Source of the DNA: Bdellovibrionales bacterium RIFCSPHIGHO2_01_FULL_40_29 | GTDB taxonomy: Bacteria > Bdellovibrionota > Bdellovibrionia > Bdellovibrionales > Bdellovibrionaceae | DNA: 64,000 nt | Assembly: GCA_001771815.1 (NCBI GenBank) | Contig: MEPU01000004.1 | Location: 682,001 to 746,000 of the forward strand | Reading direction: 5' to 3' | Shown: piece after piece, positions 39,788 to 50,317 of the stretch | Position numbering within the stretch: position 1 is the stretch's first letter | Layout: each line of letters begins with the position of its first letter | Position numbers and translations under genes: made by a program | Notes under the pieces: generated by a model | What the model saw: the letters and a program-made list of their open reading frames with translations, nothing else | Told to the model about the DNA's origin: nothing | The model's database searches: none

Positions 39788-40312
39788 TTAAGAACCTGAC
39801 AAAATTTCTAGCGTTTGGACAACTTTTTGCCCATCTTTTAGGATTCCCTCAAGTGACAACTTATTTGCCCCTTTATTCAATTGAATGAAATCTGTTTTGA
39901 ATTTTGAATCTTCCAATCTAAAAATCTGCGCTTTAAAACCGTTGGTTTCATTTTTTACCCACAGCTGGTGCTTCTCTTTTAAATCGGCACAACTTGAAAG
40001 CTCTAACATCACCAGGTGCTGATCTGAATTGATTTTCAAATCTCCGGGAACACAGAAAATTTTGAGCGCTAATTTTTGCTCTTTTTTTCGAGAACTTGAG
40101 CTACCGACTGGTTCAAGTTTCTTACCATCAATATTTGCCGGTCCACGCTCAGCTCCAGAATTTGGATGTCGCTCAATAGGTTCCGTTAAAATTTGCGCCA
40201 AAGATTTAGACTTGGATTCCACGGGCTGCTCCATAAAACTAAATACCATGGCCCCCGTCAGCATCGTAAAAAAAAGAATGATTGTTTTGTTCTGTTGCCA
40301 AAATAAGCTCAC
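39788..40312 (-). CDS. Single-span envelope protein downstream of exbD
   Basis: A 174-residue protein with one N-terminal helix (TIILFFTMLTGAMVFSF), a disordered Ser/Pro/Lys linker (about 30-75) and a C-terminal periplasmic domain rich in beta strands (KIFCVPGDLKINSDQHLVMLELSSC) with two cysteines. The topology parallels TonB/TolA-like partners of ExbB-ExbD motors, but the TonB box-binding fold is not evident. It follows exbD by 69 bases on the same strand. Function unknown. Confidence 0.65.
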   Translation of the reverse strand: MSLFWQQNKTIILFFTMLTGAMVFSFMEQPVESKSKSLAQILTEPIERHPNSGAERGPANIDGKKLEPVGSSSSRKKEQKLALKIFCVPGDLKINSDQHLVMLELSSCADLKEKHQLWVKNETNGFKAQIFRLEDSKFKTDFIQLNKGANKLSLEGILKDGQKVVQTLEILSGS

Positions 40313-40381: not shown

Positions 40382-40786
40382 TTATTTTTTATCGATACTG
40401 ATCGCAAACTTCTTCACGCCTGCACCCTTGACGATATCCAGAACCGAGACAACACGTCCATGCGGGACATCTTTATCCGCTGAAATAATCGCCTGGATGT
40501 CCGGATTTTTTTTCACTTCCTCAGTCGCTACAGCACTGACTTCCGAATCCTCTACCGTTTTCCCGTCTAGATTGATCTTTCCGTCCGGACTGAGTGTGAT
40601 ATTAAGCTTGCTGGGTACCGTGGCCTCGCCACTTGCTGCTTTAGGAAGGTTTATATTGATCGATGGTTTCATAATCATCGGAGCTGTTACCATGAATATG
40701 ATCAGAACCACTAAAATAACATCCACCATTGGAACAATGTTAATCTCGGCGATGACCTCGTCGCCAGAATCAGGTTTAAATGCCAT
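40382..40786 (-). CDS. ExbD/TolR family protein
   Basis: A 134-residue protein with one N-terminal helix (INIVPMVDVILVVLIIFMVTAPM) carrying the conserved membrane Asp22 that conducts protons, and a periplasmic domain ending ISADKDVPHGRVVSVLDIVKGAGVKKFAIS. It pairs with the ExbB/TolQ homologue ending four bases upstream. They use the proton gradient to energise outer-membrane transport or envelope constriction. ExbD and TolR cannot be separated here. Confidence 0.92.
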   Translation of the reverse strand: MAFKPDSGDEVIAEINIVPMVDVILVVLIIFMVTAPMIMKPSININLPKAASGEATVPSKLNITLSPDGKINLDGKTVEDSEVSAVATEEVKKNPDIQAIISADKDVPHGRVVSVLDIVKGAGVKKFAISIDKK

Positions 40787-40789
40787 GAT

Positions 40790-41419
40790 TTACAGACCTT
40801 TCTTTTTTCCGTAAGCCAGACCAAGCTCTTTCACGCTCTCGAGGCTTCCCATGATACCCTTAACTTTTCGAGTAAAATAATTATAAAAAATACCCGCTGG
40901 AATCGCGACAAACAAACCCGCAGCTGTTGCCACAAGCGCCACTGAAATACCCGCCATAACAGTTTGTTGTCCAGCATCAGTTGCCTGAGCTAAATCATTG
41001 AAGGCTTTCATGATACCCAAGACTGTTCCCAGCAATCCAATAAATGGAGCATTTGATGCTATTGTTGCCAAAACGGCTAAATATTTTTCTAAATCTGGTT
41101 TTTCAATGAGGATAAACGTGTTGAAAACCTCTTCGAAACCATTGAGTCCCGATTCCTTAATATGTTTCATCGACTGGTTGGCCGCGCGACCTTCAATGCT
41201 AGATGGATCCTTTGCCAGATCCTCAAAATCTTGTAATGAGTTTGTCTGCAGAGCCAATTTAATGCGAAGACGAATCCGCGAACTCTCTTCAGAGATGCGC
41301 TTAAGAGCCATGAATCGTTCAAAAATCATCCCTACTGACAGCACACTCATGATGATCAATATGATCAAAACAACTTGGTCGGCATAATGAGCAATGGCAA
41401 ATATTTTTTCAGCAAACAT
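40790..41419 (-). CDS. MotA/TolQ/ExbB family proton channel
   Basis: A 209-residue protein with three membrane helices, the cytoplasmic loop between the first and second being large. The family signature IASNAPFIGLLGTVLGIMKAFNDLAQA and GISVALVATAAGLFVAIPAGIFYN are clear. It forms the stator with the adjacent ExbD homologue. The gene starts a three-gene run exbB-exbD-174 aa protein and is divergent from the sulfatase-fold lipoprotein. No tonB or tolAB gene is in the window, so the pathway is unassigned. Confidence 0.92.
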   Translation of the reverse strand: MFAEKIFAIAHYADQVVLIILIIMSVLSVGMIFERFMALKRISEESSRIRLRIKLALQTNSLQDFEDLAKDPSSIEGRAANQSMKHIKESGLNGFEEVFNTFILIEKPDLEKYLAVLATIASNAPFIGLLGTVLGIMKAFNDLAQATDAGQQTVMAGISVALVATAAGLFVAIPAGIFYNYFTRKVKGIMGSLESVKELGLAYGKKKGL

Positions 41420-41471
41420 GATAGGCTCCTCTTTACTTTAAGCAGTGTTTCTAACAGTATGGATTCTGTTC

Positions 41472-43043
41472 ATGAAGCCGTCAAAACTGTCTTTAATTAA
41501 GGTCTGGATTTTTTCTGCTGCGCTGTTGGCCGGACTTTGGTCGCTGTCTTCGTGCCAAAAAAGAAAAGCCCCCTCGTTCATCATCATTGCCGTTGATCGA
41601 TTGGCATTTAATGCCTTTTCCTGCGGAGATGACAGACAAAACACACCGTCCGGACTGAATATTCTTTGCAAAGAGGGCATCCGTTTCACTCATGCCTACA
41701 CCACATCGCCCCAACCTGCGGCTGCAATGGCATCACTACTCACTGGACTTTATCCCATTCAACATCAGATTCACCGCACTTTTGATCGACTTAATCCCGA
41801 GGTGAAGACTCTCCAAGAAAAAGCGTCTTCGATGGGATATCGAACTTATTTCTATGGTGGCAGCCCGTCCTTGTTGCGAAAAACAGGCCTGTCTCATGGA
41901 TTTGATATTTTTGATGACACTTCATTTATTGAAAAAAAAACCTTTGCACTGGATTTTAAATATCAATCTGAAAAATTAATGGCGGCGATTCTGGATGACA
42001 AAACTAGCTTCACCTCAGTGATCTACAATTCGGAGCTGCGTTCATTAAATTCGGGGGAAAGTCAAATTTCAAGTCTTGAAAAACTAGATGAAAAATTTTT
42101 CAACTTTTTTATAGAATTAAAATCTCGAAATCTTTGGGATCACAATTATGTTATTGTTGTTGGTTTGCAGGGCGTTTCAGATTACAGCCGATTAAATGAA
42201 ACACCCTTTTCGAATTTAAATTCTGAAAACACCATGGTCAGTCTGTTTCTGAAGCCACCTCGAGTCAAAGGTGACGAGGGTGTCTCTTGGAAAGTCGACA
42301 CACCCATCAGCATTGCCGATCTTGGTCACAGCCTTTGGCGCACAATAACAGGAATAGAGAATCCAAATTCAGCACTGGATAATCCTCATTTTCCAATCCA
42401 TGACATCTCTGCAATCTGGCTCAATCAAAACAAAATGTTCAATTTGCCTGTCCGCCGCTTGTTGGTTGAATCTGCAGATACCTGGAAAAAACAGATCTCG
42501 GTGCGCTTTTCCATTCTATTTCGAAATCTCATCTTTATAGAAAACACAAAAAATAGTGTCTTCAACACTCTCACCGATGGATTAGAATCTATCGATATTG
42601 CTGCACAACAAAAATCATTTATGGATGATAACAGTGACCTCTTGGCAAAAATTCGCACGCAAAAAAACTTAGGTCGCTGGCAAACCTATATTTCAGAATG
42701 GACCGATTCCGTTCAGACCAATCGCGCTTACTGGTCGAAACCAAATTCTCGAGTTGAGCTTTTTACCGAGGAGCTCAATCGCTTAAAGAAAAAAGGCACT
42801 CCCGATCCGCTGTCGGCTCTGTTGGTTCGCCATCTTGTTCAAACAAAAAAGACTTCCGAGTTAAAGACTATAAAGCTTGGATCTATGCCTCCACGCGTGG
42901 CTATTATCTATGAAAAGCAGAAGGACTCATTCTATGAATTTGCCAAGCTTCATTCATTTAATTTAGCTCAAGAAAATTTATGGGGTATTTGGAAACCCAA
43001 TGAAACATGGATTTACTCGGACTTGATTTTAGAATACCAATAA
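41472..43043 (+). CDS. Sulfatase-fold lipoprotein lacking the catalytic signature
   Basis: From the ATG at 41472, a 523-residue lipoprotein (lipobox LSSC near residue 28) of the alkaline-phosphatase superfamily. PSFIIIAVDRLAFNA occupies the first metal strand and MASLLTGLYPIQHQIH the segment after the active site. In active sulfatases CxPSRASLLTG precedes it. Here the equivalent residues are P-A-A-A-M-A-S, so the modified cysteine and arginine are missing. It is therefore probably a non-enzymatic or altered relative. The C-terminal 200 residues are unique. Its 3' end overlaps the convergent gene by about 30 bases. Confidence 0.75.
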   Translation: MKPSKLSLIKVWIFSAALLAGLWSLSSCQKRKAPSFIIIAVDRLAFNAFSCGDDRQNTPSGLNILCKEGIRFTHAYTTSPQPAAAMASLLTGLYPIQHQIHRTFDRLNPEVKTLQEKASSMGYRTYFYGGSPSLLRKTGLSHGFDIFDDTSFIEKKTFALDFKYQSEKLMAAILDDKTSFTSVIYNSELRSLNSGESQISSLEKLDEKFFNFFIELKSRNLWDHNYVIVVGLQGVSDYSRLNETPFSNLNSENTMVSLFLKPPRVKGDEGVSWKVDTPISIADLGHSLWRTITGIENPNSALDNPHFPIHDISAIWLNQNKMFNLPVRRLLVESADTWKKQISVRFSILFRNLIFIENTKNSVFNTLTDGLESIDIAAQQKSFMDDNSDLLAKIRTQKNLGRWQTYISEWTDSVQTNRAYWSKPNSRVELFTEELNRLKKKGTPDPLSALLVRHLVQTKKTSELKTIKLGSMPPRVAIIYEKQKDSFYEFAKLHSFNLAQENLWGIWKPNETWIYSDLILEYQ

Positions 43044-43654
43044 GAACCGTTAACCGACTGATGACCAATACTCCATTGATCAGAGCCAGCAACAAGATTG
43101 AACTGAATTTGATTCTGATACACCGAAGACGCTACAAAAGTATTTTCTGAAAATCGCGTCGACCCACAACGCAATTCAATTTCACGCTCGACACCCAATA
43201 ATTCAATAGGCAACAAAGTTTGTCGATCCCGATCGGTTCCAACCGCTGTCAAAATACCTGTGGCTTGACCTTCAAGTTCATACAAATCAAATCGCCCCAC
43301 CGCACCCCATGCTAGTTCATTTTTACTACGCATTAGAATCAGACACTCGAAACCAACTGAAAAGAAATTTTTATTTTCAATCTTGTAAAAATAATCATGT
43401 GCCAAAAGTATGGCGACACGAACCTTATTTGCCAACTGAGTCAAATTCTCGGCAAAATCAAAAGGCGACGTCACTTCAATATCAGCTTGTGCTGTTGAAA
43501 GGAAATGAGAAACTTCATCAATAAATTTTTGATCATAATCTTGCGATCCCCATGAGCGCAGAAAAATAGTCAGCTGATCGTCCAACAATTGGTGAACACT
43601 TGTCGTTGGCATTTTGAGAAGCCCCTGATGAGAATGTGTTTCAATTCGCATCAC
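43013..43654 (-). CDS. Unknown protein at the end of the FHA operon
   Basis: A 213-residue protein without signal or membrane segment. The stretch ELAWGAVGRFDLYELEGQATGIL followed by LLPIELLGVEREIEL resembles the central strands of PP2C-like phosphatases (GDSR and LG segments), though the metal-binding aspartates are not evident, so this is a weak hint only. Its ATG overlaps the FHA protein stop by four bases, so it belongs to the operon. A phosphopeptide role would fit FHA neighbours. Function not established. Confidence 0.65.
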   Translation of the reverse strand: MMRIETHSHQGLLKMPTTSVHQLLDDQLTIFLRSWGSQDYDQKFIDEVSHFLSTAQADIEVTSPFDFAENLTQLANKVRVAILLAHDYFYKIENKNFFSVGFECLILMRSKNELAWGAVGRFDLYELEGQATGILTAVGTDRDRQTLLPIELLGVEREIELRCGSTRFSENTFVASSVYQNQIQFNLVAGSDQWSIGHQSVNGSYWYSKIKSE

Positions 43655-45645
43655 ATCACTCCATATTTTCGAAGTTTAATGATGGCTTTTTTATAATAAT
43701 CACCATCATCTAAGTCCATCTCGACAATTTTCTTCCATTTGTCTTTAGCCCCTTGGCGAGATTCAGAGTTTTCAACAATACCGTAGCTTTCATCAATAAC
43801 AGACTCTTGATACAAAACCATCATTTGTCGCCGCAATTCGGTTGTGTACGAATCAATCTTATCTTTAATTTTTTGATTGGTTGGATCATACACAAGAGCT
43901 TCACGAAGCGATAAAACGGATTCCTTCAGTTTGCCCTCTTGAAATAAAGTTTCTGCTTGAGCCATGCTTTTTTGAGTTTTTTCTTCAATTTTCTTTTCAA
44001 TAAATTCAATTCTGGATTTGGCTTTTCGTTTCAAATTTTTAGGATCTGCAAGCTGAGCATCTTTAACAATCTTATAGTGCTTGATCGCCTTAAAGGCATA
44101 CCCTTCATTTTGAATTTTTTCAGCTTTGGCAAAAAGTTTTTGAAGTTGCTCCACCTGCTCTTCGTAAGTTTGTTGTTCAGCTTCTTTAAGTTTTCGATCC
44201 ATTATTAATTTTTCGGCAGTTGATGTTAATCGAATATAATCCGCATTCGACGGATCAATGGTCGCAATTGGAATAAGACATTCCTTAAGCTTATCCATGT
44301 CGACTGAAGGTGAGATTAATTTTTCACATCGAGCCGCGACTTCAATAAACATCTTTCGTTGCTCTTCCTCTTCACGAATTCGTTTTTCATCTTCTTGCTG
44401 TTGGATAATCGTCAATAAACTTTGCTCAGCTTGAACTTGCATCGCTCGAGATTCTTTAAAACCGTTTGGCAACTCTTCATGAATTTTGCGTATTTTTTCT
44501 AATGCCAGATCAAATTTTTGCTGAGCCAACATTTGATCTGCAAGCGAATAAAGCTCTTTAATTTCTTCTTGCTTCCGTGGTGATAACTTTGTGTAAGCGT
44601 CTCCTTCATTTGTGACCGGCACAGGTGCCGTAGGCTCATCAAAAACCCCACCAAAATAGGCAGCTAAACCCAAAATTCCAATAATCAAGGTCGCCAACAT
44701 GGGCTTACTTAGATTCGCTAACCCTTTTTTAAGCGTCGCAGCAGGTGACTTCGTAAAACTATAAAACTGATTCTGATCGTTTTGCGGCGGAACCCCCGTA
44801 AAGGGACCACCCCCATCCATATCAAGCTGAGGTTGGTTTTCACCATCTACAACTTCTGGAATTTCCGTTGGCATATGCATTGGCCGCGGAACTTCATCAT
44901 CCACTTCAGACATTTCAAATGGAATGGACGGGATATCAATTTTTCCAATTTTAATTTTAAAATTTGGATCATGCAATTCAAAGTAAATTGTATTATCCAA
45001 TACTGTAATCGCATCACCACTTCGAAGTGGCTGCGGATCCGTTGACGAGACACTGGATCCATTTAAAAATGTTCCATTAACACTGCCTAAATCCAGAATT
45101 GTGAAAATTCCATTCACTTTATGAATCTCGAACTGTCGCCGACTCACGCGCTGATCTGGAATAACAATCTGACACGAAGGATCTCGACCGGCCACCCAAA
45201 GATCTCCGACCTCAAGGCGCAACATTTCAGTTACCTGATTCACTGAATTGACAAGTTTTATATAGGGAACCTGTGGAGCTGCGCCAACAACAGTCTTCGA
45301 AACTTCACTAAAATTAGCATCGCCTCGATCTGACGAGGCCATGTCCGAATCTGGCACATCCAATAGTTGAAATTCATAGGGCGGCACTTGAAAATTCTGA
45401 CCATGCTCAAGTGTTGTCTCTTCAATCTTTTGACCTAATGAAAAAATTTCTCCGAAACGTGAAATAGCCTGTAAAACCCAATGACCATCCATCCACTTCA
45501 GTTTGAAGTGCTCGCGGGAAATTCCCTTTTCGGCTTGAAGACGAATATCAGATCCTTCTTTTCGACCAGCAATATATTCTTTATCGGGATTAAGCTCGAT
45601 CTCGCTAATCAAAGCCCCACGAAGCAAAACCTTCAGTCGAGACAT
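43651..45645 (-). CDS. Double-FHA protein with membrane helix and TPR-like repeats
   Basis: From the ATG at 45645, a 664-residue protein. Two forkhead-associated domains are visible: GRKEGSDIRL...GISREHFKL at about residues 22-45, and AGRDPSCQIVI...VSRRQFEIH...DLGSVNGTFLNG near 150-200. A membrane helix (MLATLIIGILGLAAYFGG) follows at about 320, then a long charged helical region of TPR-like repeats (SLADQMLAQQKFDLALEKIRK; KAIKHYKIVKDAQ). FHA domains bind phosphothreonine. The start TAATG overlaps the preceding gene, so translation is coupled. Confidence 0.85.
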   Translation of the reverse strand: MSRLKVLLRGALISEIELNPDKEYIAGRKEGSDIRLQAEKGISREHFKLKWMDGHWVLQAISRFGEIFSLGQKIEETTLEHGQNFQVPPYEFQLLDVPDSDMASSDRGDANFSEVSKTVVGAAPQVPYIKLVNSVNQVTEMLRLEVGDLWVAGRDPSCQIVIPDQRVSRRQFEIHKVNGIFTILDLGSVNGTFLNGSSVSSTDPQPLRSGDAITVLDNTIYFELHDPNFKIKIGKIDIPSIPFEMSEVDDEVPRPMHMPTEIPEVVDGENQPQLDMDGGGPFTGVPPQNDQNQFYSFTKSPAATLKKGLANLSKPMLATLIIGILGLAAYFGGVFDEPTAPVPVTNEGDAYTKLSPRKQEEIKELYSLADQMLAQQKFDLALEKIRKIHEELPNGFKESRAMQVQAEQSLLTIIQQQEDEKRIREEEEQRKMFIEVAARCEKLISPSVDMDKLKECLIPIATIDPSNADYIRLTSTAEKLIMDRKLKEAEQQTYEEQVEQLQKLFAKAEKIQNEGYAFKAIKHYKIVKDAQLADPKNLKRKAKSRIEFIEKKIEEKTQKSMAQAETLFQEGKLKESVLSLREALVYDPTNQKIKDKIDSYTTELRRQMMVLYQESVIDESYGIVENSESRQGAKDKWKKIVEMDLDDGDYYKKAIIKLRKYGVM

Positions 45646-46706
45646 TAACGAATACCCTCGGCAGCAAGTTGGCATTTCTCGACCATATTCTTAGCCAAGA
45701 GGTACTTTTGATCATTGTTTCTACCCTGAAGCATATCCATAACTTGTCTGTACAATGATTCACACATACTAAAATTATGCTTCTGATAATTACTTTCTCC
45801 AAGTACTAATTTTGCTTGGACAAGTTCGTCAAACCGAACATTTGACAAATACAGGTGGCGACGCGCCAACGCATGGTCTGGAACTAAATTTAGCACCACT
45901 CGAAAAAAATCCTGTGCTCGTGCATAATTCCCAAGCTGAAAATCGCGCATTCCTTTAATAAAATTCTCTTCAGCTCTGGCAAATTGAGGTGATTTTCGAG
46001 CATCTCTATCCGCTTTCAACTTTTTCTGAAGTTCCTTTTCTTTTGTAGAATTCAAATTAACAGCAATCTCATCCTCGTACTTCAAGACAGGTTTTGCCTT
46101 GACCGCTTTTGGTTTCGAACGAGACTGGCTAAAATAAAATGCGAAGGCTCCAACAACAACAATAGCCAAAATCAATAATCGCATCTGACCTTGTTTAGCT
46201 TCGGCAGTTTTGCCTATTTGTGAACGCGGTTGAGATGCTGGTCCCTTTTGCAAAATTGGACCTGGCGGCATCGAAGACTGTTGAGAAACAGCTGTATTCT
46301 TAACCGTTGGTACAGAAGTGTTTGTTTTTGGATTGTGCAGTTTCAAATGAGGTTCTTTGGGAACCGAAACAACGGCTTGCCCCAGATCATATTGAAACTT
46401 TAACTCACAATCTCCAATTTGAAATATCGAATCATTCACCAACGCAGACTTCCAAGTGACTTCTCCGTGAACCATTAAAAAGTTTTTCTCACTGAGATTG
46501 CTGATTTCAAAGACATTTTGATTCAAATCAATTCTGGCATGAGATCGACTCACAAGTGGATCATTTAATAGAACAATATCGTTCTCGGGACCGCGGCCAA
46601 TTGTCAGCGGAGTTTTATGAAAATGAAATGACTGTCCCGCATGAGGTCCTTTAACCACATTGAGTTGAATTTTAATTTGTGTCGCCTGCTTAAGCGCTGC
46701 GGTCAT
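45645..46706 (-). CDS. FHA-domain protein with membrane helix and TPR
   Basis: A 353-residue protein. The FHA domain is near the N-terminus: TIGRGPENDIVLLNDPLVSRSHARIDL, with a less usual NLSEKNFLMVHGE in place of the SxNGT loop. A Pro/Gln-rich spacer precedes one membrane helix (LLILAIVVVGAFAFYF, about residue 175), and the C-terminal part carries TPR-like helices (RDFQLGNYARAQDFFRVVL; SNYQKHNFSMCESLYRQV). FHA lies on the opposite side of the membrane from the TPR part. Second of three FHA genes in the operon. Confidence 0.85.
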   Translation of the reverse strand: MTAALKQATQIKIQLNVVKGPHAGQSFHFHKTPLTIGRGPENDIVLLNDPLVSRSHARIDLNQNVFEISNLSEKNFLMVHGEVTWKSALVNDSIFQIGDCELKFQYDLGQAVVSVPKEPHLKLHNPKTNTSVPTVKNTAVSQQSSMPPGPILQKGPASQPRSQIGKTAEAKQGQMRLLILAIVVVGAFAFYFSQSRSKPKAVKAKPVLKYEDEIAVNLNSTKEKELQKKLKADRDARKSPQFARAEENFIKGMRDFQLGNYARAQDFFRVVLNLVPDHALARRHLYLSNVRFDELVQAKLVLGESNYQKHNFSMCESLYRQVMDMLQGRNNDQKYLLAKNMVEKCQLAAEGIR

Positions 46707-46715
46707 AAATCCTCA

Positions 46716-48392
46716 TCACATTGGGCTTTCCGCTTTGTTCAAAGTCATTAAATAATACTCTGGCTGACCATTTAAATCTAAAAATACCTGACACTGGATA
46801 TCACATTCAAACTGCGAAAATGGAATACGATCCCTATGTTTTTCATATGGAGACTGCGTCGCTCGGACAATCAGTGAATCCATATTCTGAACCAATGATG
46901 AATCACTCATAATTTGATACGACTGATTCACCAAGGCCTCGCGGTTCATTTGACAAATTTGTTCGAATGAAGTGTTCAGCGCAACAATCCGATTTTCAGC
47001 ACCAATCACGATCGCCGGCTGTGTGATCATCTCAACTAAATTATTATACTCTAAATCACGATTTTGCTGTGGCCTGACTTCCGCTGAAGAATCTGCTGAA
47101 TTCCAAGCTCGATTTAAAAGAGTGTTGATATGAGTCGTCAATTGCTGAATAGCCGGATAGTTAAAAAGAACTTCCGTGCGATCAGTCTTATCACGAAGTG
47201 CCTGATCTAACTGCTGATTCAAACTTTTCAAAGGGTACTCTATCAACCGAGAAAAGAGAAAAAACAGCATTAAACCCAGAACAGAAGCAAGAACTAATGT
47301 CTGCATAAATAAACTGATAACTCGTCCCTCATCAACATTCAGTGATGCAATATCATAATACACAACGGCATGATATTTTACCGTTGGCTCTCCGGTAGTT
47401 GGATCATAAACGCCAATGGGATAACTTGCTCCAATTGTTGTTCCATCAACTCTCCCAACTGTTGTGCGACTTTCCTTGAGGGCTTTTAGGATAAAAGAGC
47501 TGGATGCATCTCGACCTACTTTTTCACTGGGAGCCACAATATTTCCATCGGATTGCTGCACAATGAATGCGTCTTTGATGCCTTCTTCTTTTAAAGCATC
47601 ATTCACAGTTAAATTTCCAAACTGACCGGTTAATAACGCCTGTTCGTTGACTTTCGCCATGGCATGAGCCACAGATTTGGCTCTCTTCGTTCCTTCGATA
47701 AAGTTGGACTCATCTGTCAATATTGTCAGTGGAATAGTTGATAATAAGGTCACACCAAATATAAAAATCAAAATGAAACTCATCAAAACTTGCTTGAATG
47801 GAAACACTAAAGCCAAACGGTATACCGCCGGCATCAGAACTGTTTCAATAAACAGTTCTATCCTTTGCTGGAAACTGATTGACGGTGACTCGTCAACGCC
47901 GACAGCGTTGTAAATATTATTGTTCGGATCCTCAAACGACTGCGAGTACTGTTGCATTTGAAAAGCCGCCGATCCATTGTCCGGATAAGACGAATTCATC
48001 ATTGGAACTGGCGGTGGTGGCGGCATGAGGGCTTCAGTTGAGCCAGAAGAAAGTCTGGATGCTGGATTGATAACACGAGGTAAATTTTTAGGAGGACGAA
48101 TATCTGGCGTTGGAATTAAATCCATAATGATATCAAAAAGACTAATTTTATCACCGACTCGCATCAGAGAATTTTGAATTTTAATTCCATTAACAAAAGT
48201 TCCATTGCTGGATTTAAGATCAATGATAATAATTTTATCTTTGTACACATGAATTTCACAATGCTCTTTAGAAATTCCAACAGATTGCACCATGAAATCA
48301 CAGGAAGAACCACGGCCAAAAACATTCTTACCCAGTTTTAAATCAAAAATCTGGCCTACATTCGGGCCAGACAACATTCTAACTGACCACAT
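46716..48392 (-). CDS. FHA-sensor protein with HAMP- and PAS-like domains
   Basis: From the ATG at 48392, 558 residues. FHA domain at about 5-95: FGRGSSCDFMVQSVGISKEHCEIHV, LKSSNGTFVNG. A Pro-rich linker follows. First membrane helix VLMSFILIFIFGVTLLSTI is followed by a 120-residue extracytoplasmic sensor domain, then a second helix (LVLASVLGLMLFFLF), a HAMP-like linker and a PAS-like domain (QPAIVIGAENRIVALNTSF). There is no kinase or response output, so it is a sensor that likely relays through FHA binding. The start overlaps the DUF192 gene. Confidence 0.82.
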   Translation of the reverse strand: MWSVRMLSGPNVGQIFDLKLGKNVFGRGSSCDFMVQSVGISKEHCEIHVYKDKIIIIDLKSSNGTFVNGIKIQNSLMRVGDKISLFDIIMDLIPTPDIRPPKNLPRVINPASRLSSGSTEALMPPPPPVPMMNSSYPDNGSAAFQMQQYSQSFEDPNNNIYNAVGVDESPSISFQQRIELFIETVLMPAVYRLALVFPFKQVLMSFILIFIFGVTLLSTIPLTILTDESNFIEGTKRAKSVAHAMAKVNEQALLTGQFGNLTVNDALKEEGIKDAFIVQQSDGNIVAPSEKVGRDASSSFILKALKESRTTVGRVDGTTIGASYPIGVYDPTTGEPTVKYHAVVYYDIASLNVDEGRVISLFMQTLVLASVLGLMLFFLFSRLIEYPLKSLNQQLDQALRDKTDRTEVLFNYPAIQQLTTHINTLLNRAWNSADSSAEVRPQQNRDLEYNNLVEMITQPAIVIGAENRIVALNTSFEQICQMNREALVNQSYQIMSDSSLVQNMDSLIVRATQSPYEKHRDRIPFSQFECDIQCQVFLDLNGQPEYYLMTLNKAESPM

Positions 48393-48759
48393 AAAGTTGA
48401 TCTCCCACCTGTAGATTCTTTTCTTTTGCAAATCCTGCCGAGGTTTCAATAACCGATTGCGCCTTCCAATAAGGCCCTACCAGTCGAAACGGTGGTATCG
48501 AACTTACTATTTTCACAATCTCAAGTTTTCGATTTACAAAAATACAATCAATGGAAAACTTCATAAAAAAAGTGTGAATATTATTTGTTCTTTGAATCCA
48601 CATTGCCTGAGTTGAACTTAGACTTTTGCGACCAAGTAAACCTCGACCTCGTTGCCAAAAAGTTTCTGCCAGTTCAAAGTTTTCAATCAACAGCTCTGCT
48701 CCTGAATTGAAGTTGGATTGCGATGCTGCTGAAGATGTCTTGTAAAGTCGAGCCATCAC
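48379..48759 (-). CDS. DUF192 family protein
   Basis: A 126-residue protein of the DUF192 family: LAETFWQRGRGLLGRKSL, MWIQRTNNIHTFFMKFSIDCIFVNRKLEIVKIV, and VIETSAGFAKEKNLQVGDQLYV. The usual FWMKNT motif reads HTFFMKFS here. The function is uncharacterised in general. It overlaps tadC at its start and the FHA sensor gene at its end, so it sits inside a tightly coupled operon. Confidence 0.85.
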   Translation of the reverse strand: MMARLYKTSSAASQSNFNSGAELLIENFELAETFWQRGRGLLGRKSLSSTQAMWIQRTNNIHTFFMKFSIDCIFVNRKLEIVKIVSSIPPFRLVGPYWKAQSVIETSAGFAKEKNLQVGDQLYVVS

Positions 48760-49667
48760 ATCCCCCCGCCATACATGAATGAAACAGCAATAGGGCCAAG
48801 AACCATAATAAAAACTGCTGGCAAAATAAATAACATCAAAGGCAATAAAATCAGTTGCGAGGCCCGAGCACCAGCCTTTTCGGCACGAAGAAAACGCTCG
48901 AGACGCATTTGTATCGACTGATCTTTAAGGACCTGCGAAATACTGGCACCCGTCGCCTCTGCATCAACCAACACAGCAACAAAGCTGGTCATTTCTTGCA
49001 TATCCAGTCTCGCTGCCAATTCTTTAAGGGCATCCGCTTTCGAAGAACCAATTTTTATGTCTTTTAAAACAATCCGAAACTCTTCAGCAAGCACAGATTC
49101 TGTGCCTTCGGCTTTATCCACTATTTTTTGGATGGCACCGAAAAAATCCAATCCAGCCTCAACAGACAGAGCCAATAAATCAATAAAGAAAGGCATATCA
49201 ATACGCACACTTAATTCACGGTTTTTCTTAGTGGCCTTACAGTGCATCTCAGGCATAAAAAATCCAATCAATCCCAGTAATAAAACCAGAGCTGGCGGAA
49301 ATCCTAAGTCCAAAGAAAAATTCATCACAAATAGAAATAATGGAAAGGCAATTCCCAAAAATAATTGCAAACCAATAAACTCATCGACATTCAACTCGGC
49401 AGCCAAACCACCCACTTTAATTAAACGTTGAATTTTTTTTCTGTATTTTTCAGATTTGATGCGAACCGCGTGCTGTATCGTAAACTGATGAACCAATGGT
49501 CGGCATAAATTAATCACAGCATTCTTGGATTTGATCGGTTCAGTACCGCTTGCCCAGGAAAGTTGCTGCTCGCCCGGTCGCCCGGCAAGCATTGAAGACA
49601 CAAAAAGATAAACGGCTGCACCCGCTAGTATTAAGCCTGCAAATAGCATTAACTCTGCGCTACCCAT
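48756..49667 (-). CDS. tadC: Tad-type pilus assembly protein TadC-like
   Basis: A 303-residue membrane protein of the GspF/TadC family. N-terminal helix ELMLFAGLILAGAAVYLF, further helices at about 105-155, the family FIDLLALSVEAGLDFFGAI segment, then EEFRIVLKDIKIGSSKADALKELAARLD and a C-terminal pair of helices (ILLPLMLFILPAVFIMVLG). It is a scaffold of Tad/Flp pilus or related secretion systems. The ATG at 49667 is chosen because AGAGGA lies just before it. No tadA, tadB or flp gene is present in the window, which is unusual. Confidence 0.85.
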   Translation of the reverse strand: MGSAELMLFAGLILAGAAVYLFVSSMLAGRPGEQQLSWASGTEPIKSKNAVINLCRPLVHQFTIQHAVRIKSEKYRKKIQRLIKVGGLAAELNVDEFIGLQLFLGIAFPLFLFVMNFSLDLGFPPALVLLLGLIGFFMPEMHCKATKKNRELSVRIDMPFFIDLLALSVEAGLDFFGAIQKIVDKAEGTESVLAEEFRIVLKDIKIGSSKADALKELAARLDMQEMTSFVAVLVDAEATGASISQVLKDQSIQMRLERFLRAEKAGARASQLILLPLMLFILPAVFIMVLGPIAVSFMYGGGM

Positions 49668-49699: not shown

Positions 49700-50317
49700 A
49701 TGAAAAAAATTATTCTTGCTTCACAGTCACCTCGCCGATCAGAAATACTCAAAAAAGCGAAGTATGATTTTGTCTCAATCCCTACCCATGTATCGGAAAT
49801 CCCTGATAAAAACCTAAATCTGAATGAACAAATAATTGATATTGCCCGACGAAAATCTCAGTTTTGCCAAAACTTCATCCGCGACAAAAGTCTGGGTTTT
49901 GATTTTAAAGCTGAAAATTCTCTTATTCTGTCGGCCGACACGATGGTTTGCCTTAAAGAAAAAGCACTTGGAAAGCCTGATAGCGAATCCATGGCTTTTC
50001 AGTTTTTAAAAGAACTTTCTGCCAAAACTCATCAAGTGAAAACAGCCGTTGTGATGCTGGATTTAGCAACTCACGAGGAAGTGTCTCTTATTGAGACGAC
50101 AGATGTTACGTTCCGAGCTTTAACTGATGATGAGATTGCAGACTATATCAAAACAGGCGAACCTCTTGATAAAGCCGGAGCCTATGCCATTCAAGGGCTT
50201 GGCCGTAAATTTGTAAAAAACTATCATGGTGATTTTGATAATGTGGTCGGACTTCCCTTGCAAGCTATCGAAAAAGTATTCAAAATTAAATCATGGACTC
50301 TCAAGCGCCTTCCGTAA
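49700..50317 (+). CDS. maf: Maf-family nucleotide pyrophosphatase
   Basis: A 205-residue Maf/YhdE-type protein that hydrolyses dTTP, UTP or modified nucleotides and influences septum formation. ILASQSPRRSEILKK at the N-terminus and ILSADTMVCLKEKALGKP plus AGAYAIQGLGRKFVKNYHGDFDNVVGLP near the end are diagnostic. The ATG at 49700 gives the right N-terminus. An upstream open frame to 49550 is not used. It is the first gene of the maf-yggS-proC-divIVA run. Confidence 0.93.
   Translation: MKKIILASQSPRRSEILKKAKYDFVSIPTHVSEIPDKNLNLNEQIIDIARRKSQFCQNFIRDKSLGFDFKAENSLILSADTMVCLKEKALGKPDSESMAFQFLKELSAKTHQVKTAVVMLDLATHEEVSLIETTDVTFRALTDDEIADYIKTGEPLDKAGAYAIQGLGRKFVKNYHGDFDNVVGLPLQAIEKVFKIKSWTLKRLP

Follow-up and report, generated by a model that had tools for sequence, protein, structure and literature searches.

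A tadC-FHA operon of a Bdellovibrionales bacterium is one half of a split Tad pilus locus and encodes a predicted PP2C-fold pseudophosphatase

The operon analysed here and its role in predation are already known from Bdellovibrio bacteriovorus HD100, in which Bd0470-Bd0475 are the same six genes in the same order and with the same flanks, no difference in kind being seen between the two loci. Work with Tn mutants in B. bacteriovorus, where alone contact-dependent prey killing is known for an orthologous operon, has shown that mutants of Bd0470 (tadC) do not attach to, kill or round prey, and that Bd0474 mutants attach to prey, yet neither kill nor round it (PMC6561027). A two-hybrid assay has shown binding of the Bd0474 protein to the TPR protein Bd0075, and an interaction between Bd0473 and Bd0475 has been predicted with an ipTM of 0.604 (PMC12034629). 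In host-independent strains the expression of bd0470 falls along with that of the Tad operon (PMC3818213), and TadV, the dedicated prepilin peptidase, is reported to be absent from B. bacteriovorus (PMC5430801). Two studies of the operon left Bd0475 as a hypothetical protein, and neither its relation to PP2C phosphatases nor a contiguous form of the operon in relatives is described in them (PMC12034629, PMC6561027).

The Kil system of Myxococcus xanthus (kil clusters 1 and 2) combines a split Tad apparatus with one Tad ATPase, several FHA proteins and a role in predation, and its authors, who proposed FHA signalling and left the enzymes unnamed, place a Kil-like system in the Bdellovibrionales (PMC8460266). 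In the PpkA-Fha-PppA pathway of the T6SS, an FHA protein and a PP2C phosphatase are encoded with a contact-dependent machine, as is likewise the case here. Phosphopeptide recognition by the FHA domain of DgcB, an FHA-GGDEF protein from the same bacterial group (B. bacteriovorus), gates predation, and Bd3148 has been proposed as a candidate for the kinase that acts on this protein (PMC6733907). DgcB differs from the FHA proteins considered below in that it is a soluble cyclase encoded outside the Tad operon.

The window, that is, the whole stretch of DNA that was analysed, comprises 64,000 nucleotides (contig C4, positions 682001-746000) of a genome of 2.93 Mb assembled into 13 contigs, whose closest named relatives are MAGs of the Bdellovibrionaceae/Pseudobdellovibrionaceae. 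A first-pass annotation made from the sequence alone had reported six coupled minus-strand genes at 43013-49667; all six ORFs are present, joined by overlaps or short gaps, and Pfam agrees with the assignment of a TadC-like protein, a DUF192 protein and three large FHA proteins with four FHA domains in total. The gene for the Tad inner-membrane platform protein, tadC (48756..49667, minus strand as are the five that follow; 303 aa, T2SSF 5.9e-16), overlaps by 4 nt the DUF192 gene at the Bd0471 position (48379..48759; 5.5e-20), which occupies this place in nearly all of the loci read and which overlaps by 14 nt the gene of an FHA/PAS membrane protein at the Bd0472 position (46716..48392; FHA 1.4e-16). 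A gap of 9 nt leads to the gene of an FHA/TPR membrane protein at the Bd0473 position (45645..46706; FHA 5.2e-10), which shares 1 nt with that of a 664-aa 2xFHA/TPR membrane protein (43651..45645; FHA 6.3e-27, in two stretches), and this in turn shares 1 nt with the sixth gene, at the Bd0475 position (43013..43651; 212 aa). A hydropathy scan counts one TM segment in the FHA/TPR protein, one in the 2xFHA/TPR protein, two in the FHA/PAS protein and none in the DUF192 and sixth proteins. The FHA/PAS protein consists of an N-terminal FHA domain, two TM segments with an extracytoplasmic segment between them and a weak C-terminal PAS domain, and the FHA/TPR protein of an FHA domain, one TM segment and a C-terminal repeat region. 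Two neighbours lie outside the machine, in flanks that are conserved in the class: maf (49700..50317, plus strand), already recognized as the divergent neighbour, whose ATG is 32 bp from that of tadC, and a convergent sulfatase-like gene (41445..43043, plus strand; Sulfatase 1.7e-12), which overlaps the 3' end of the operon by 31 nt. A tolQ/tolR-type pair (40382-41419) and a gene for a 174-aa protein (39788-40312) are also located downstream, each in a position conserved in the class.

The operon is taken as the orthologue of Bd0470-Bd0475, with tadC corresponding to Bd0470 and the 2xFHA/TPR gene to Bd0474, because an HD100-like genome (G073) matches residues that have been published for HD100 proteins: its 2xFHA protein shows 12 of the 12 Bd0474 residues given in PMC12034629, and an ORF near 68 kb fits 13 of the 14 residues published for Bd0075. 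Identity between the proteins of the window and those of this genome ranges from 73% for TadC to 30% for the sixth gene, and a Bd0075 homologue (45% over 956 aa) is encoded in the genome to which the window belongs.

The first-pass annotation had found no tadA, tadB, flp or secretin gene, a statement which is correct within the window and does not extend to the genome, in which the Tad core sits on contig C13. Read at 407-427 kb of that contig were flp, TadE-like ORFs, rcpC (4.1e-17), rcpA, a gene for a 741-aa TadZ-TadA fusion that supplies a TadA-type ATPase (T2SSE 8.7e-59), tadB and then a gene for an RHS-repeat protein; the secretin and Flp1-like matches fall just under the Pfam cut-offs, though in the expected positions. 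This is the single Tad core of the genome, and the locus as read contains no tadC. A genome-wide T2SSF search returned two double-domain PilC/GspF-type genes, one tadB, on C13, and one tadC, that of the window, with no other single-domain T2SSF genes, so that the TadB and TadC pair is complete and the window holds the only tadC of the genome. The oddity implied earlier, a tadC without a Tad system, disappears, since the genome's one Tad core lacks exactly this gene. The window operon is one half of a split Tad pilus locus, complementary to the half on C13; the two do not form one contiguous locus, and tadC is not adjoined by an ordinary tad locus in this genome. An independent machine that operates without the Tad core was also considered, and is ruled out by the search that returned a single tadC together with the tadC-less core on C13.

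FHA-rich accessory proteins and a split Tad, which are found together in Kil, are also found together here. The gene content and the position of the split differ from those of Kil, and the kil FHA genes are likened to the present ones by description only. KilF has an N-terminal FHA domain, whereas in this genome the fusion partner of TadA is a ParA/MinD-type (TadZ) domain, and the N-terminal half of the TadZ-TadA protein showed no FHA domain, only ParA/MinD-type domains.

A search for the six-gene order in relatives established that it is not peculiar to the strain. The tadC profile has matches in 288 of 291 genomes of the phylum, and in locus regions read from 54 genomes the same gene order is found phylum-wide, down to protein identities of 22-25%; four named MAG loci have it whole, with maf and its neighbours on one side and, on the other, tolQR together with the sulfatase-like gene, and three more are cut by contig ends. 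Within the class of the window, the operon lies apart from the Tad core in 22 of 22 loci, the HD100-like genome included. Outside the class it is contiguous with Tad genes in 11 genomes from six families, where tadC, the DUF192 gene, the FHA/PAS, FHA/TPR and 2xFHA/TPR genes and the sixth gene are followed, all in one orientation, by pilin/TadE-size ORFs and rcpC-rcpA, most of these loci running on into tadZA and tadB. Two further genomes outside the class show this arrangement in part, and the loci of family f17 again have no link between the operon and the Tad core. Contiguous genes are the usual Tad arrangement, and because of this, and because the contiguous form is found in several families, we infer that it is ancestral. 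In two genomes of the same order (G029, on C33, and G275, on C2) tadZA is kept at 55-56% identity and the matches to tadC and 2xFHA are weak, a pattern which could reflect either assembly gaps or a tadC-less Tad that arose through loss of the second half.

These comparisons bear on two readings in which the FHA genes have no part in the pilus. That the operon came together by chance, or in this strain alone, and has no functional significance, as housekeeping genes in the flanks might suggest, can be given virtually no credence when the order is kept across the phylum under different flanks and is joined to the Tad core outside the class. The FHA and PP2C genes might instead serve another envelope machine (gliding, TolQR) and be merely co-located with tadC, given that tolQ/tolR occur in the class flanks, that the FHA domains of the operon weakly match GltG, and that the HD100 tadC and Bd0474 mutants fail at different stages, attachment and killing respectively (PMC6561027). 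Outside the class, however, the tolQR flank is absent and Tad core genes directly follow the FHA genes, and the TolQR-type cluster on C6 already has a separate FHA protein; service to another machine is accordingly regarded as very improbable.

The sixth gene, which had been labelled an unknown protein, proves on the combined evidence of profiles, AF2 and Foldseek to encode a protein of predicted PP2C fold. The window protein alone gave nothing usable against Pfam. Its 45 orthologues (25 class members and 20 from outside the class) are each encoded by the next ORF after the 2xFHA/TPR gene, mostly with an overlap of 1-4 nt; PP2C_2 is matched by 18 of the 45 (best 3.8e-12) and SpoIIE by 21 (with E up to 1), and the outgroup members carry the PP2C motifs NED, DGFGG, S/TDG and DN. 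When compared with the PDB, the family profile finds PP2C structures (tPphA 1.5e-17, T6SS PppA 9.4e-12); an HMM built from the outgroup only retrieves the window protein at 2.6e-6, with the best unrelated ORF at 2.9; and profile-profile comparison of class and outgroup gives a probability of 99.1. The AF2 model from the 45-sequence alignment has a pLDDT of 93.1 and a pTM of 0.90 (a model from five sequences, with a pLDDT of 46, was not used), and among the 50 Foldseek matches listed for it PP2C phosphatases lead throughout (tPphA 4.8e-9), T6SS PppA being among the structural matches, with TM-scores near 0.6 that fit a diverged PP2C member.

Of the 20 proteins from outside the class, 19 have the NED and DG aspartates, whereas none of the 25 class members does, and because of this complete absence the class protein, that of the window included, is predicted to be inactive and is probably a pseudophosphatase in which the metal-binding aspartates are mostly or all lost. 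Almost all of the class loci read nevertheless retain the gene as an intact ORF, and the sole dN/dS value obtained for it is low, at 0.075, with dS saturated, as a result of which dN/dS was mostly unusable. The idea that phosphatase loss tracks the splitting of the operon found no support, since the f17 loci are unlinked with mostly intact motifs and the f22 locus is contiguous with lost motifs. A search of open-licence papers, supplements excluded, for PP2C in Tad or Bdellovibrio contexts returned nothing relevant; judged by that literature the contiguous operon, the PP2C identity and the class-wide loss of catalytic residues are new, an earlier description being possible.

Conservation of the FHA sites was scored in 57 orthologues. 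In the FHA/PAS protein the site residues G, R, S, H and N are invariant (57/57), as are G, R and S in the FHA/TPR protein (57/57); in the second FHA domain of the 2xFHA/TPR protein G, R and S are invariant and the Asn is present in 55 of 57, and the first FHA domain of that protein is without the Asn. The residue set of a phosphothreonine reader (G-R, S, N) is therefore full in the FHA/PAS protein and near-full in the FHA/TPR protein and the second domain of the 2xFHA/TPR protein. Because the contact residues are largely invariant, it is more probable that the domains really read phosphothreonine than that their role is structural only. The structural alternative is that the FHA proteins are phospho-independent parts of the inner-membrane basal body of the Tad machine, comparable to YscD of the T3SS, which has an FHA-like domain, with the PP2C-fold protein serving as a structural adaptor. 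The Pfam family Yop-YscD_cpl matches all three FHA proteins too, their succession of FHA domain, TM segment and periplasmic domain is the layout of a ring protein, and the phosphatase ligands are lost both in the class and in the contiguous f22 locus; structure alone, however, would not demand (near-)invariant phosphothreonine-site residues, and most outgroup sixth-gene proteins retain the phosphatase motifs, so that the alternative, while it merits consideration, is judged unlikely. The other FHA proteins of the genome are one encoded beside TolQ/TolR-type genes in a gliding-like cluster (L024:3595-5613), an FHA-sigma54 activator (L024:17908-19161) and, as in B. bacteriovorus, an FHA-GGDEF protein, which is DgcB-like (L025:5026-5937).

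A genome-wide profile search for Ser/Thr kinases found one clear Hanks-type kinase (C4:563871, with a TM segment and a PEGA domain), the only PF00069 match over the Pfam cut-off, on the same contig as the operon and about 167 kb from it; one intact PP2C is encoded elsewhere in the genome. No kinase gene is present in the operon, nor was one found near it among the ten neighbour proteins checked in outgroup loci L109 and L110. In the HD100-like genome, too, a single kinase exceeds the cut-off; it lies at 3.06 Mb, near the place expected for Bd3148 from interpolated gene numbers. We hypothesize that the single Hanks kinase acts on the Tad module.

The reading that is considered likely is that the operon is half of a Tad/Kil-like predation pilus and carries an FHA/PP2C control module which links contact with prey to the assembly or firing of the pilus. 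The TadC of the window would pair with the TadB, TadZ-TadA ATPase, RcpA/RcpC and Flp pilins encoded on C13, and the three inner-membrane FHA proteins would present their FHA domains to the cytoplasm and their TPR/sensor domains to the periplasm. Prey contact would alter the phosphorylation, presumably by a Ser/Thr kinase, of a membrane or Tad component, and the FHA domains would read this mark and, via the periplasmic TPR/sensor domains, license Tad assembly or firing. In other lineages the PP2C relative would remove the mark; in the class it may act without catalysis, for example by docking to or shielding a phosphorylated partner, and a cycle there would need another phosphatase because the class protein is without metal ligands. 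Points against this reading are the lack of a kinase in the operon, the lost ligands, the first FHA domain without its Asn and the weak tadC matches in G029 and G275. It had been suggested earlier that the operon may encode an envelope machine, or a pilus module, under phospho-regulation; the pilus part of this suggestion is strengthened by the split Tad half and the contiguous relatives, and the phosphorylation part by the conserved FHA residues and the PP2C relationship, from which we infer that the pilus may be phospho-regulated.

A bolder proposal, which is offered tentatively and with somewhat more doubt than confidence, is that a Thr-phosphorylation switch, made up of the three membrane FHA proteins and a PP2C phosphatase, belongs to the Tad operon throughout the phylum, and that in the Bdellovibrio class its phosphatase is now a pseudophosphatase, the switch being protected or released by binding. 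If this were true, a reversible switch, analogous to the T6SS pathway, would have become binding-based in that class. The present system resembles that pathway and is not a member of it: the machine is a Tad pilus, the cluster contains no kinase and the phosphatase is predicted to be dead in the class. The results bear on how a predator senses contact with its prey and fires a Tad/Kil pilus, a question reduced to one kinase, four FHA domains, one (pseudo)phosphatase and one pilus because the FHA genes accompany the Tad operon, the sixth gene encodes a PP2C relative, and both genomes have a single Hanks kinase.

Two neighbouring genes may be recorded in addition. The gene that follows the PP2C gene in one f17 locus (L109:10642-11808) encodes a response-regulator receiver protein (2.5e-16), and other f17 loci have ORFs of similar size after the PP2C gene, so that a second signalling input is possible in this family. 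The RHS-repeat protein encoded directly after tadB on C13 (L023:7768-9459) shares 62% identity with the product of the ORF that takes the place of Bd0109 in the HD100-like genome, and 30% with that of the ORF which follows tadB in L110, a contiguous locus; because of these identities this gene, that of the hit locus, looks like an old member of the Tad operon.
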